A stretch of 32,744 nt of DNA from Selenomonadaceae bacterium (GTDB lineage Bacteria; Bacillota; Negativicutes; Selenomonadales; Selenomonadaceae). Within the stretch, counting starts at the first letter, position 1, and the number at the start of each line of letters is the position of its first letter. The DNA lies in the NCBI GenBank assembly GCA_017412925.1, contig JAFPVP010000083.1:1-32744 (forward strand), given 5' to 3'. Positions 2,196 through 18,762 of the stretch are shown here, one piece after another. The notes beneath the pieces are model-generated. The model had not been told where the DNA came from, made no database searches, and was given only the letters and a program-made list of their open reading frames with translations. The position numbers were made by a program, and so were the translations under genes.

Positions 2196-2822
2196 ATGCC
2201 AACTGTAGCAGTTTACGATATGACCAACAACAAAGTCGGCGACCTTGAACTCAGCGAAGAAATTTTCGGCGTCGAGATTAACGAAGGGCTCGTTCATCAA
2301 GCTGTTGTCATGCAAATGGCTTCGTGGAGACTCGGCACGCACTCGACCAAAACTCGCGCTGACGTTCGCGGCGGCGGCAAAAAGCCTTGGCGTCAAAAGG
2401 GCACCGGTCGCGCCCGCGCAGGCTCGCGCAGAAGTCCCCTTTGGCGTGGCGGCGGCACAATCTTTGGACCGCACCCCCGCGATTATTCGTTCTCCATGCC
2501 GCGCAAACAGCGTCGCCTTGCAATAAAATGCGTCCTCACCGATAAAGTCAAGGAAGGCAATTTAATCGTCCTTGATAATCTCAACTTCGATGAACCCAAG
2601 ACGAAAAAATTTGTCGAACTGCAAAAAACTTTCGGCGTCGACGGTTGCAAATCGCTCTTCATTACCCGCGAACTTATCGACAATGTAACTCGCTCGTCGA
2701 ATAATCTGCAGAACGCCAAGGCAATCGCCGCGCTCCAACTCAACGTCTATGACATTCTCAACAGCGATAAACTCTTCCTCACCAAAGACGCCGTCGCAAA
2801 GATTGAGGAGGTGTACGTCTAA
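2196..2822 (+). CDS. rplD: 50S ribosomal protein L4
   Basis: L4 is a large-subunit protein whose extended loop lines the nascent peptide exit tunnel; in some bacteria it represses its own S10 operon. The 208-residue product shows the tunnel-loop signature [16 protein letters not shown] and the [10 protein letters not shown] segment. ATG 2196 is chosen over the in-frame TTG at 2175 because AAAGGAGG lies just before it and L4 normally begins with a short hydrophobic strand. Its stop overlaps the start of rplW by one base (TAATG), which suggests translational coupling. Confidence 0.97.
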
Positions 2823-3103
2823 TGGAAGCCAGAGACATTTTGATTCGCCCGCTCATCACCGAGCACGGAACCGACCTTATGGCTCAAGGAAAATTCGTTT
2901 TCGTCGTCGACAAGCGCGCCAATAAAATTCAAATCGCGCAGGCCGTCAAAGAAATTTTCAACGTGACGGTCGAGGCAGTCAACACCATGAACTACAAGGG
3001 CAAGACCAAACGTCGCGGGCGCACGGTCGGCAAGACGGCAAGCTACAAAAAAGCTATCGTCAAGCTCAAAGCCGGCGAAACAATCGAATTCTTCAGCGCA
3101 TAA
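2822..3103 (+). CDS. rplW: 50S ribosomal protein L23
   Basis: L23 lies at the tunnel exit and is the docking site for trigger factor and SRP. The 93-residue product has the typical [11 protein letters not shown] start and the [18 protein letters not shown] loop that contacts rRNA. The ATG overlaps the rplD stop, and its ribosome binding site (GAGGAGG) lies inside the end of rplD. An A6T5 block follows its stop codon, a motif seen after several genes in this operon. Confidence 0.97.
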
Positions 3104-3133
3104 AAAATTTTTGACAAAGGAGGTAAAACGTAA

Positions 3134-3958
3134 GTGGGAATTAAATCTTTCAAGCCGTACACTCCCGGACGCCGCCACATGACGGTTTCGACGTTCGAGG
3201 AAATCACCACCGATAAGCCGGAAAAATCACTGCTCGCTCCGCTGAAAAAACACGGCGGCAGAAATCAGCAGGGACGTTTGACGGTTCGTCATCAAGGCGG
3301 CGGTCACAAGCGTCGCTATCGTATCATCGACTTCAAGCGCAACAAAGACGGTATCCCCGCCAAAGTCGCCACGATTGAATACGACCCCAACCGCAGTGCG
3401 CGTATCGCTCTGCTCCACTACGTCGACGGCGAAAAACGCTACATCATCGCGCCGAACGGTTTAAAGGTTGGCGATATGGTTGAATCGGGAGCCGAAGCCG
3501 ACATCAAAACCGGCAACGCTCTGCCGCTGAAAAATATCCCCGTCGGCACCATGATTCACAATATCGAAATGAAAATCGGCAAGGGCGGGCAACTCGTTCG
3601 CAGTGCGGGCGTCGCGGCTCAGCTCATGGCTAAGGAAGGCAACTACGCAACGATTCGCATGCCGTCCGGCGAAGTTCGCAAAGTTCACATCAACTGCCGC
3701 GCGACAATCGGGCAGGTCGGTAACCTTGACCACGAAAATATAACGATTGGTAAGGCTGGTCGTTCGCGCTGGCTGGGAATTCGTCCTGCTAACCGCGGCG
3801 TCGCAATGAACCCTGTAGACCATCCGCATGGCGGCGGTGAAGGTCGCTCGCCCGTCGGTCGCAAGCACCCCGTCACTAAGTGGGGCAAGTGCGCTATGGG
3901 CGCGAAGACTCGCAAGAAGAAAGCTTCCGACAAACTCATCGTTCGTCGTCGCAAGTAA
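3134..3958 (+). CDS. rplB: 50S ribosomal protein L2
   Basis: L2 is needed for subunit joining and peptidyl transferase activity. The 274-residue protein has full family length, the SH3-like and OB-fold core, and the C-terminal [13 protein letters not shown] signature, including the histidine (of HPHGG) implicated near the active site. Translation starts at GTG 3134 after AAAGGAGG. It lies 30 bases after rplW and 22 before rpsS in the canonical S10 order. Confidence 0.98.
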
Positions 3959-7900: not shown

Positions 7901-8299
7901 ATGGCAATGACTGATCCTATTGCGGATATGCTCACGCGCATTCGCAATGCTAATTCCGTCTACCACGAAAAGGTGGAAATTCCCGGCTCGAAAATTAAAG
8001 TCGCAATCGCGGACGTGCTCAAGCGGGAAGGTTACATCAAGGATTACAGCTTCGCAGAGGACAACAAGCAGGGCATTTTGACTGTCAAGCTTAAGTACGG
8101 TCCCGAACGCGAAAAAGTTATCACGGGCATTCAGCGCATCTCCAGACCGGGGCTCCGGCAATACAGGCAAAAGAAAGACCTGCCGCGTGTGCTCGGCGGG
8201 CTCGGTATCGCGATTATCTCCACGTCCCAAGGCATCATGAGCGACAAGCAGGCTCGCAAGGCTGGGCTCGGCGGTGAGGTTATCGCTTACGTCTGGTAA
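7901..8299 (+). CDS. rpsH: 30S ribosomal protein S8
   Basis: S8 is a primary 16S rRNA binding protein and, in enterobacteria, the autogenous regulator of the spc operon. ATG 7901 gives a 132-residue protein, the usual length, starting [16 protein letters not shown]. The in-frame TTG at 7877 overlaps the AAAGGAGG ribosome binding site and is rejected. The C-terminal half contains [10 protein letters not shown] and the [20 protein letters not shown] signature. The 13-base spacing from AAGGAGG to the chosen ATG is longer than usual. Confidence 0.95.
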
Positions 8300-8323
8300 A
8301 AAAATTTTTTTGGAGGTGCTGTC

Positions 8324-8875
8324 ATGTCTCGAATTGGAAGAGCACCGATAAATATTCCCGCCGGCGTCACCGTTTCAGTCGGCGAAGATAATCTGGTGCA
8401 TGTAAAAGGTCCCAAGGGCGAATTGTCCCGCAAGATCTCCACGGAAATGAAAATAACTATTGAGGATGGCGTTTTAAAGGTGACGCGCCCCTCGGACGAT
8501 AAAACGCACAGAAGTCTGCACGGCTTGAGCCGCACGCTGATTAACAATATGGTCGTCGGCGTTACCCAAGGCTTCACGAAAAATCTTGAAATCGCCGGCG
8601 TCGGCTATCGTGCCGCTAAGCAGGGCAAGAACTTAAATCTGTCGCTCGGCTATTCCCACCCCGTGATTATCGAACCGCCCGCAGGAATTACCCTTGAGGC
8701 TCCCACGGCGACCACGATAACTGTTCACGGCATAGATAAGGAACTCGTCGGCGCAGTCGCTGCTAACATTCGCGGCTGGCGTGAACCCGAACCCTACAAG
8801 GGCAAAGGCATCAAATACGCGGGCGAACATATCCGCCGCAAGGAAGGCAAGGCCGGCGCGAAAGGCAAGAAGTAA
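8324..8875 (+). CDS. rplF: 50S ribosomal protein L6
   Basis: L6 lies near the sarcin-ricin loop, where translational GTPases bind. The 183-residue product contains both repeated domains, begins [14 protein letters not shown] and ends with the [14 protein letters not shown] signature followed by a lysine-rich tail. ATG 8324 is preceded by TGGAGGTG. It is the last gene in the usual order before the two inserted VOC genes; rplR would normally follow. Confidence 0.98.
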
Positions 8876-8893
8876 TCGGACGGAGGCATAATC

Positions 8894-9298
8894 ATGAATA
8901 TCGAACATGTTGCCATCTACGTAAACAACTTGGAAGTCGAACGAGAATTTTTCACGAAATATTTCGGCGCGAAGGCAAGCGAAAAATACACCAACTTCCG
9001 CAACGACTTCACCAGTTATTTTCTTACTTTCGACAACGGCTCGCGTTTTGAAATTATGCACCGCACCGGTATGTTTGACCCCAAGAAAGAAAAATATCGT
9101 TCCGGCTATCATCATATTGCGCTTAACGTCGGCGGCAAAAAAGATGTTGACGCACTTACAAGCAGATTGGAAGATGACGGAATGGTTATCGTGGTTGCTC
9201 CGCGCAAGACGGGCGACGGTTATTATGCAAGTATTGTGACTGACCCCGAAGGTAACGAGATTGAACTTCTTGCGGGCGGCACTGTTTACGACAACTGA
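8894..9298 (+). CDS. VOC-family (glyoxalase-fold) protein 1 inside spc operon
   Basis: This 134-residue protein has the vicinal-oxygen-chelate fold, built from two beta-alpha-beta3 modules. Candidate metal ligands match glyoxalase I spacing: His5 (EHVAIYV), Glu53 (RFEIM), His74 (GYHHIAL) and Glu124 (DPEGNEIELL). Glyoxalase I converts the methylglyoxal-thiol hemithioacetal; other VOC members are dioxygenases, epimerases or thiol transferases, so the substrate is not assigned. ATG 8894 has GGACGGAGG upstream and sits 18 bases after rplF on the same strand, so it should be transcribed with the ribosomal genes. A paralogue follows directly. Codon use resembles the neighbouring ribosomal genes, giving no sign of recent acquisition. 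Confidence 0.9.
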   Translation: MNIEHVAIYVNNLEVEREFFTKYFGAKASEKYTNFRNDFTSYFLTFDNGSRFEIMHRTGMFDPKKEKYRSGYHHIALNVGGKKDVDALTSRLEDDGMVIVVAPRKTGDGYYASIVTDPEGNEIELLAGGTVYDN

Positions 9299-9329
9299 AT
9301 TTCTTTTTTAAAGAACGGAGGTAATTACC

Positions 9330-9734
9330 ATGAAGATTGAGCACGTTGCCATGTACGTTAATGACTTGGAGGCGGAGAAAAATTTCTTCGTCAAATACTT
9401 CAACGCAAAAGCCGGTTCCAAGTACAGCAATTTCCGCAATGACTTCAGCAATTACTTTTTGAAATTCGATGACGGCTCGCGCTTGGAAATCATGACGCGC
9501 AACAGTGCAACCGATGCAGAAAAAACTCGTTATCGCACGGGTTTTCATCACATTGCAATCAGCGTCGGCGACAGGAAAGACGTTGACGACATGATGAAAA
9601 AATTCGACGCGGACGGCGTTATCGTTGTAAGCGGCGCACGCACGACCGGCGACGGTTATTATGCGGCGGTTGTCGTTGACCCCGAAGGCAACGAGATTGA
9701 AATTATCGCGGAAAATGCCGGTTTGCGCGACTAA
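9330..9734 (+). CDS. VOC-family (glyoxalase-fold) protein 2, tandem paralogue
   Basis: This second 134-residue VOC protein has the same length as its upstream neighbour and is about 57% identical to it by hand count without gaps. All four candidate metal ligands are kept (His5, Glu53, His74, Glu124), as is the block around TGDGYYA and DPEGNEIE. It differs most at residues 57-68, which may shape the substrate pocket. AACGGAGG precedes ATG 9330. A gap of 39 bases with an A6T5 block separates it from rplR. The pair looks like an old tandem duplication in which both copies have stayed functional. Confidence 0.9.
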   Translation: MKIEHVAMYVNDLEAEKNFFVKYFNAKAGSKYSNFRNDFSNYFLKFDDGSRLEIMTRNSATDAEKTRYRTGFHHIAISVGDRKDVDDMMKKFDADGVIVVSGARTTGDGYYAAVVVDPEGNEIEIIAENAGLRD

Positions 9735-9773
9735 AAAATTTTTGAAACTTTTACGGCGAAGGAGGAAGACGGA

Positions 9774-10133
9774 GTGCTTCTGAAGGCAGATAAAAATAAA
9801 ACTCGCCAAAAGAGACATTTGCGCGTTCGCAATCGTGTTGCGGGCACTGCAGAGCGTCCGCGCTTGAATGTGTTCCGCAGTCTCAAACACATTTACGCGC
9901 AAGTTATCGACGACGAAAAGGGCGTGACGCTTGCGGCGGCAAGCTCACTCGATAAAGACTTCAACGGGACGGGCGGCAACATTGCGGCGGCAAAAGCTGT
10001 CGGCAAAGCTATTGCGGCAAAGGCTCTCGAAAAAGGCATCAGCGAAGTCGTCTTTGATCGCGGCGGATATATTTATCACGGACGCGTTGCGGCGTTGGCT
10101 CAGGCGGCTCGCGAAGCCGGCTTGAAATTCTAA
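9774..10133 (+). CDS. rplR: 50S ribosomal protein L18
   Basis: L18 helps carry 5S rRNA into the large subunit with L5. The 119-residue protein has the basic N terminus ([17 protein letters not shown]), the [20 protein letters not shown] signature and the [21 protein letters not shown] end. GTG 9774 follows AAGGAGGAAG. Its displacement from rplF by the two VOC genes is the main irregularity of this operon. Confidence 0.97.
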
Positions 10134-10151
10134 AGCAAAGGAGGTTCTTTT

Positions 10152-10646
10152 ATGCCCCGAAATGAAACTGAAACTCCCGAATTCGAGGAGAAAGTTGTTT
10201 TTATAAATCGTGTCGCTAAGGTTGTCAAGGGCGGTCGCCGTTTTTCATTCAGCGCGCTGGTCGTCGTGGGCAATCGTAACGGCAAAGTCGGCGTCGGGCT
10301 CGGCAAGGCCGCTGAAGTTCCCGAAGCCATTCGCAAGGGCGTCGATGATGCTAAGAAAAATTTAATCGAGGTCGCCCTGAAAGACCGCTCCATTCCCCAC
10401 GGCGTCGTTGGCGTGTTCGGCGCAGGCAAAGTCCTCTTGCGCCCCGCCTCCAAAGGTACCGGCGTTATCGCGGGCGGCGGTGCTCGTGCTGTCTTGGAGC
10501 TTGCCGGCGTTCATGACATCTTGACTAAATCGCTCGGCTCCTCCAATCCCAACAACATGGTGCGTGCCACGCTTGAAGGTTTGAAAATGTTGAAGCGCGC
10601 CGAAGTCGTTGCCGAATTGCGCGGCTTGTCCGTTGCCGAACTTTAA
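10152..10646 (+). CDS. rpsE: 30S ribosomal protein S5
   Basis: S5 lines the mRNA entrance and contributes to decoding accuracy. The 164-residue product contains the double-stranded RNA binding-like N-terminal domain with [19 protein letters not shown] and the [13 protein letters not shown] motif, then the C-terminal [19 protein letters not shown] segment. ATG 10152 follows AAAGGAGG. Confidence 0.98.
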
Positions 10647-17708: not shown

Positions 17709-17930
17709 TCAGCTTGCAACGTTTTGAGATTTTTTTTGACGAAGCCGCGCCGGTTTAAATTTAGCGAGTTCTTCATCTGTCAACGGCGGAATGTCGCTGT
17801 AATCAATATCTTTGTCATATTCTTCATCGCTAATATTTTTTAATCTTTCAAGTTCAATCCGCGCAATTTCCTGCATTTCTTCATATGTATATCTCGGTTT
17901 TAAGCTACGTTTAATAAATAAATTGCCCAT
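17709..17930 (-). CDS. brnA: BrnA-family antitoxin
   Basis: The 73-residue protein has an acidic N-terminal half and the DIPPLTDEELAKFKPARLR segment that resembles BrnA antitoxins, which neutralise BrnT and autorepress the operon. It follows brnT and overlaps it by 20 bases, the usual toxin-first order of this family. The start ATG 17930 has GAGAGGTG ten bases upstream, inside brnT. The ribbon-helix-helix part is short and weakly conserved here, so the assignment rests partly on the neighbour. Confidence 0.72.
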   Translation of the reverse strand: MGNLFIKRSLKPRYTYEEMQEIARIELERLKNISDEEYDKDIDYSDIPPLTDEELAKFKPARLRQKKSQNVAS

Positions 17931-18210
17931 AATATTTTTTCACCTCTCTTTTATTTGCCAATCGGGCTGAAATGAGCCGATATTTTTCGCCGCGCTCTGT
18001 ATAAATCACCACAAGCACCTTATCAACCATTCCGATAACTTTTATTCTTTCTTCGTAGTAACTATGCTCTTCGTCGAAATCATCAATCAAAAATTCATCT
18101 AAAAAAATTTCCGCTGCCTTTTCAAAACTGATTCCGTGTTTTTTCCTATTAATCTCGGCTTTGTTGTCGTCCCACTCGACGATATACTCGCCAATTTCAA
18201 TTTCGCCCAT
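17911..18210 (-). CDS. brnT: BrnT-family toxin (DUF497 ribonuclease)
   Basis: BrnT toxins are RelE-fold ribonucleases that halt translation when free of BrnA. The 99-residue product has the family landmarks: YIVEWDDNKAEINRKKHGISFEKA near the start, an EERIKVIGMVDKVLVVIYTERGEKYRLISAR core, and a basic KREVKKYY tail. The ATG has GGAGATG upstream, and a promoter lies 19 bases further up. It appears intact and may be active. Confidence 0.88.
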   Translation of the reverse strand: MGEIEIGEYIVEWDDNKAEINRKKHGISFEKAAEIFLDEFLIDDFDEEHSYYEERIKVIGMVDKVLVVIYTERGEKYRLISARLANKREVKKYYGQFIY

Positions 18211-18316: not shown

Positions 18317-18685
18317 TTACCAGTCCCAATCCTTCACGTCCATGAACTTATGGCAGTATTCCATTGCGTGCCTGCGTGCTTCACTTTGAGTGATTTTCTT
18401 TTCGCCGAGGTAGTATTCATTGCCGGTTATTGCTCCGTTGTGCGCGGTAAACGTGATTCCGACCTTTGCCCAACCGGCTTTAATTTCGTCTTGGATTTTG
18501 TTGCCAGGGGTAAATGCGATTCTGAGTGCGCCGTAGCGGTCGGTTGAGCCGTTCAAGCTGTTGAGGAAGCGACTGTCCGCCGCTGTTTCCGCCCAAGTGC
18601 CGCCTGCGACCTGTTCGAGTTCCTCATCGCTCATTGCTTCGAGTGCCGTGTCGATTTTTTTGATGTTGTCTTCTCTGGTTGCCAT
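18317..18685 (-). CDS. Double-glycine leader protein, possible secreted peptide
   Basis: The 122-residue product starts with a leader ending in AMSDEELEQVAGG, closely resembling the double-glycine leaders cleaved by peptidase-containing ABC exporters (bacteriocin or Nif11-type). Cleavage after Gly29 would release a 93-residue product with many aromatic residues, one cysteine (HAMEYCHKF) and a DVKDWDW end. ATG 18685 is selected because AAAGGAGA precedes it; the frame opens earlier at 18757 without a site. No exporter, immunity or modification gene is visible nearby, so its function is unknown. The single cysteine argues against a disulphide or lanthipeptide product. Confidence 0.75.
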   Translation of the reverse strand: MATREDNIKKIDTALEAMSDEELEQVAGGTWAETAADSRFLNSLNGSTDRYGALRIAFTPGNKIQDEIKAGWAKVGITFTAHNGAITGNEYYLGEKKITQSEARRHAMEYCHKFMDVKDWDW

Positions 18686-18762
18686 TTTTATCAGTCTCCT
18701 TTGATTAAATTTTGTTTTCTGTAGCTTATACGTGGGAGAACCGATTTCGTTACACAATCCGC

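Follow-up and report, generated by a model that had tools for sequence, protein, structure and literature searches.

Two paralogous VOC (glyoxalase-fold) genes, VOC1 and VOC2, lie inside the spc operon of a Quinella-like Selenomonadaceae bacterium from the rumen, between the ribosomal protein genes rplF and rplR. We regard it as probable (about 0.7) that a VOC gene was relocated into this ribosomal operon and thereby passed from inducible to growth-coupled expression. The window, by which we mean the whole stretch of 32,744 nucleotides that was analysed, comes from a 2.59 Mb, 94.9% complete MAG (G000), which among named genomes is closest to Selenomonadaceae and Quinella MAGs from ruminants. 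The insertion and its flanks are arranged in the window as follows.

8324–8875, + strand: rplF (L6), the upstream flank of the VOC insertion
8876–8893, + strand: rplF-VOC1 junction of 18 nt, holding, by sequence reading, the VOC1 ribosome binding site GGAGG
8894–9298, + strand: VOC1, a glyoxalase-I-like VOC protein of 134 aa; ATG start, intact ORF
9299–9329, + strand: VOC1-VOC2 spacer of 31 nt, holding the VOC2 ribosome binding site GGAGG
9330–9734, + strand: VOC2, a paralogue of VOC1, 134 aa; ATG start, intact ORF
9735–9773, + strand: VOC2-rplR junction of 39 nt, holding the rplR ribosome binding site GGAGG
9774–10133, + strand: rplR (L18), the downstream flank of the VOC insertion

An earlier note on this DNA had described two intact paralogues of 134 residues on the same strand between rplF and rplR, about 57% identical, both with good ribosome binding sites and both keeping His5, Glu53, His74 and Glu124. 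This description was borne out by the open reading frames at 8894–9298 and 9330–9734, by an identity of 60% over 127 residues (BLASTP) or 57% over the alignment, by the presence of the four residues in both proteins, and by the good Shine-Dalgarno sequences, cggaggcataatcATG and cggaggtaattaccATG, that place GGAGG ahead of VOC1 and VOC2. The pair were the sole relatives of VOC2 found in G000, and neither Rfam at gathering scores nor ARAGORN, run on the window, detected an RNA element or a tRNA at the VOC site. Elsewhere on the − strand of the window, by reading only, two small overlapping ORFs (17709–18210) resemble a BrnT/BrnA toxin-antitoxin pair, and a 146-aa ORF (18317–18757) has a double-glycine leader-like segment, SDEELEQVAGG.

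The rplF-VOC-VOC-rplR order, which the earlier note had suggested seeking in other genomes, proved to be recurrent. One or both VOC genes occupy the spc site in 25 genomes of a single Quinella clade, 14 with the tandem pair, 9 with VOC2 only and 2 with VOC1 only (G050 and G114), and the existence of VOC1-only and VOC2-only species indicates that each protein should work without the other. These MAGs derive from goat, sheep, red deer, roe deer and Quinella enrichments. Among 189 Selenomonadaceae genomes in which rplF and rplR were located, the gap between the two genes is 24–51 nt in 88 genomes that belong to genera other than Quinella; within the genus it is 21–127 nt in 26 genomes, 425–513 nt in 11 and 746–951 nt in 13 entries, and the loci that were read hold one VOC gene in the intermediate class and two in the widest. 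A quick species tree without bootstrap, built from 17 proteins of the spc-VOC operon itself, placed all carriers inside one clade of 29 rows, and on it the presence of spc VOC took three state changes, namely a single gain plus one loss each in G062 and G110. The str-S10-spc-alpha cluster of this clade thus holds a non-ribosomal gene that is absent from sister taxa. An assembly artefact was ruled out by the insertion in 25 independent MAGs, and pseudogenes by open frames and a dN/dS of about 0.1.

Two further features of these loci were observed. Two different spc-VOC clusters were present in each of the MAGs G072 (L041/L053) and G053 (L038/L060), probably reflecting mixed strains at a contamination of 4–6%. 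In addition, rplF-rplR gaps of ~90–150 nt without VOC genes (G057, G058, G061, G062, G064, G075, G076, G077, G088 and G089) are built of short degenerate repeats on both strands, for example ATTAGGAATT.../...AATTCCTAAT, whose sequence varies between species and which likely form hairpins.

VOC1 and VOC2 are under purifying selection, with median pairwise dN/dS values among orthologues of 0.10 and 0.07, respectively. The two genes are likely co-transcribed with rplF and rplR, because the junctions measure 18–39 nt and no + strand terminator or promoter signal rose above chance: in the scan of 8200–10200, sigma-70-like and terminator-like sites were no commoner than in shuffles, and the VOC junctions had neither kind of site on the + strand. 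Codon adaptation in G000 (CAI against ORFs from a sample of G000 contigs) placed VOC2 at the 99th percentile and VOC1 at the 73rd. VOC2 surpassed the ribosomal protein mean of its own genome in 21/21 genomes tested, and its adaptation above that mean set it apart from standalone copies (p 2e-5, uncorrected for relatedness), whereas VOC1 did not differ from them (p 0.33). Codon usage across genomes therefore argues, with moderate strength, for high expression of VOC2 only. The earlier expectation that both genes are made at ribosomal-protein rates agrees with likely co-transcription and with the ribosomal-protein-like codons of VOC2, but not with the ordinary codons of VOC1.

The probable source of the insertion is found in earlier-branching Quinella, where the same VOC subfamily is represented by a solitary gene, transcribed divergently from an AraC-type regulator. 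In a VOC tree of 129 proteins and 131 columns, so few that many forks are left open, a Quinella subfamily comprised spc VOC1 (18 rows), spc VOC2 (23 rows), and the tuf-rpsJ and standalone copies; the remaining proteins of the tree grouped with copies from Lachnospiraceae and other Bacillota. Within the subfamily, spc VOC1, spc VOC2 and the standalone copy of G110 formed one set with support 96/95, and the basal members were mostly divergent from AraC-type genes. A divergent AraC-type neighbour, with HTH_18/cupin domains by Pfam, was present at eight standalone loci (L172, L173, L180, L183, L184, L185, L186 and L188). The regulator gene was found in G110, G078 and G075, and in 0/16 of the spc-VOC genomes tested. 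At the old locus, the order is feoA-feoB-VOC(−)/AraC(+)-HMA in G110 and feoB-VOC-HMA in G062 and G069. What remains of this site in G000 is feoB and the HMA gene, which nearly abut (L254, 3399/3402), with VOC and AraC gone, and the two genes also abut in most other spc-VOC genomes tested. A standalone copy of the subfamily occurs in 3/3 clade genomes without spc VOC and in 1/25 with it (G069). The simplest history, with a direction that we infer from these comparisons, would be that the gene moved from the AraC-linked locus to spc and that the old site was lost thereafter. Counting against relocation, G069 holds an spc copy and a feoB-linked copy together. Furthermore, the G110 copy was placed beside VOC1 with weak support (93/57), so that it could also have moved out of spc.

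The relocation that we favor would have started from a single glyoxalase-I-type VOC gene transcribed divergently from a dedicated AraC-type (cupin) regulator. This gene would have moved once to the rplF-rplR site, in the common ancestor of a single Quinella clade; at that site it would be read through from the ribosomal-protein promoter, and its dose would then track growth rate and no longer an inducer. The gene would also have come to be present as a tandem pair, either copy of which was lost later in some lineages, and the old AraC-linked site would have disappeared. Growth-coupled supply may have been the benefit for which relocation was selected.

VOC genes have entered other core operons of Quinella as well. 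A member of the Quinella subfamily lies at the tuf-rpsJ site in G057, G076 and G098, a more distant VOC lineage lies at the atpG-atpD site in G066, G108 and G074 (loci L206, L207 and L208, around 2735–3326), and a VOC gene of this more distant lineage lies directly upstream of gpmI, a gene named from sequence reading, in G058 and G098; all of these copies are in sense. None of the ~44 non-Quinella homologous loci that were read has ribosomal protein, atp or gpmI genes adjacent, and an arrangement conserved across Bacillota was rejected on this sample. Phage or plasmid cargo was also rejected, the only matches being of <60% identity to 7 phage and 99 plasmid records, some of them from Listeria. 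We advance more tentatively, at somewhat less than even odds, the broader idea that Quinella repeatedly swaps AraC control of VOC enzymes for core growth promoters (spc, str/S10 and atp), together with a rationale in its niche. If so, this would be convergent expression capture: loss of the regulator, together with insertion into an essential operon, would lock enzyme dose to growth, and the rumen niche would turn the VOC substrate from an occasional threat into a constant one.

The ribosomal operons of Quinella carry passengers besides VOC genes. In other species of the genus, the following were found at other sites.

L181:15830–16552, L238:6071–6778 and L240:7885–8592: DeoC-like aldolase gene (PF01791 for L181) at rpmC-rpsQ in the S10 operon, three Quinella genomes
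L220:10382–10780, L222:12998–13351, L232:3522–3905 and L237:3443–3819: gene for 23S_rRNA_IVP (intervening-sequence protein; PF05635 for L220) at secY-adk, four Quinella genomes
L230:3468–4298 and L236:2167–2967: PDDEXK_2 (transposase-type nuclease) and DAPG-hydrolase-like genes at infA-rpsM

The gene for 23S_rRNA_IVP at L237 is split into two ORFs, and at the rpmC-rpsQ site G076 carries a membrane ORF of 105 aa. Small membrane ORFs likewise occur in the ribosomal clusters of these other species, and four outgroup ribosomal clusters that were read held no passenger genes. These passengers suggest that tolerance of insertions may be neutral: with selection on gene order relaxed, short sense genes would persist, the VOC genes would be bystanders, and their coupling to growth would bring no benefit. 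Intergenic gaps widened across the genus are consistent with such tolerance, as is the recurrent relaxed selection on the translation cluster inferred by Brandis 2021 (PMC8046335). However, bystanders would not be expected to be kept across 25 species-level genomes at dN/dS 0.07–0.10, to enter core operons repeatedly (spc, tuf-rpsJ and atpG-atpD) and always in sense, to lose their dedicated regulator, or, in the case of VOC2, to reach the codon usage of ribosomal proteins. We therefore consider neutral tolerance unlikely, although it is the strongest of the alternatives to growth-coupled relocation.

Both proteins matched Pfam PF00903 Glyoxalase (VOC1, E 3.9e-19, 69.6 bits; VOC2, E 3.8e-15, 56.8 bits) above its gathering cut-off of 20.6 bits. 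In the family alignment, H5, E53 and H74 are each present in 129/130 rows, a single divergent row being the exception, and E124 in 130/130; R104, T106-G107-D108 and E119 vary little or not at all. An AF2 model of VOC1 (pLDDT 90.9; element order E-H-E-E-E-E-H-E-E-E) has the paired beta-alpha-beta-beta-beta fold, and its top PDB matches are VOC proteins. The closest is 3e5d, Listeria LMOf2365_0426, a putative glyoxalase I from structural genomics that belongs to the same VOC subfamily (E 7.6e-35), is 48% identical in the fold alignment (TM 0.90, rmsd 1.1) and shares the ligand positions, but whose function is assigned no further than the fold. Next is the Ni-glyoxalase I of E. coli (GlxI/GloA, 1f9z), with which VOC1 and VOC2 share the fold and the four-ligand H-E-H-E set of glyoxalase I; the VOC ligands H5/E53/H74/E124 match what we take to be the E. 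coli metal ligands, H5/E56/H74/E122.

These ligands and PDB matches would suit a classical glyoxalase I, scaled to growth rate, in glutathione-dependent detoxification of methylglyoxal, but other evidence makes this role quite improbable. Identity to E. coli GlxI is about 24%, and the two proteins scored far below the NCBIfam cut-offs of the glyoxalase I equivalogs TIGR00068 (36.2 and 40 bits against 120) and NF050074 (34.9 and 35.9 bits against 165). The host is without methylglyoxal synthase and the glutathione and bacillithiol genes tested: methylglyoxal synthase (TIGR00160) was absent from 66 genus genomes while positive controls matched, and neither glutamate-cysteine ligase (PF04262, gshA-type) nor BshC was found in G000. 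The earlier note had proposed that the proteins could detoxify a by-product of growth; this found no positive evidence, and the gene content does not support a classical GSH glyoxalase. Fos thiol transferases, which are standard resistance proteins, were also rejected, with FosA, FosB and FosX models reaching at most 33 bits against cut-offs of at least 170. Our best guess is that the VOC proteins are homodimeric divalent-metal isomerases or thiol transferases acting on a reactive carbonyl or xenobiotic, and it is possible that their chemistry involves non-enzymatic methylglyoxal and other thiols.

The earlier note had alternatively suggested a role tied to ribosome supply, and this too found no positive evidence. 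That VOC proteins bind or protect ribosomes or ribosomal protein assembly is conceivable from their site between two ribosomal protein genes and, in a second lineage, near tuf. However, related copies are not confined to ribosomal genes but also lie beside AraC genes, within the atp operon and directly before gpmI, the gene is missing from many Quinella, and the enzyme ligands are fully conserved, which together make such a role very improbable.

A search of the literature found no earlier account of VOC genes residing in a ribosomal operon, although this is not proof of absence, and neither glyoxalase nor ribosomal proteins nor operons are mentioned in the main text of the Quinella genome paper. 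The gene order inside the spc operon is one of the most strongly conserved in bacteria. Dense sampling of one genus (66 genomes) provided a likely donor locus and empty sites, as well as tandem arrangements, single copies and losses, and makes it possible to test what brings genes into ribosomal operons and keeps them there. Quinella VOC would offer a natural case of a metabolic gene tied to growth; it also marks an uncharacterised VOC subfamily, for which the need in rumen Quinella seems to go along with growth.

Insertions of this kind fall under the existing concept of genomic hitchhiking. Insertions into the str-S10-spc-alpha cluster are known, among them bfd-bfr between str and S10, and, in the portion of Brandis 2021 (PMC8046335) drawn on here, they resemble Quinella VOC in that metabolic genes entered the translation cluster once and were then inherited. 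The insertions described in that portion lie mostly between operons, whereas the Quinella genes lie inside spc. Unlike those cases, as far as the same portion presents them, Quinella VOC is a paralogous pair that came, on our reading, from a regulator-linked locus since lost, and its relatives have inserted at tuf-rpsJ and in atp as well. What is new in Quinella is thus the position inside spc, the paralogous pair, the traceable donor locus, and the recurrence of one fold in several core operons.
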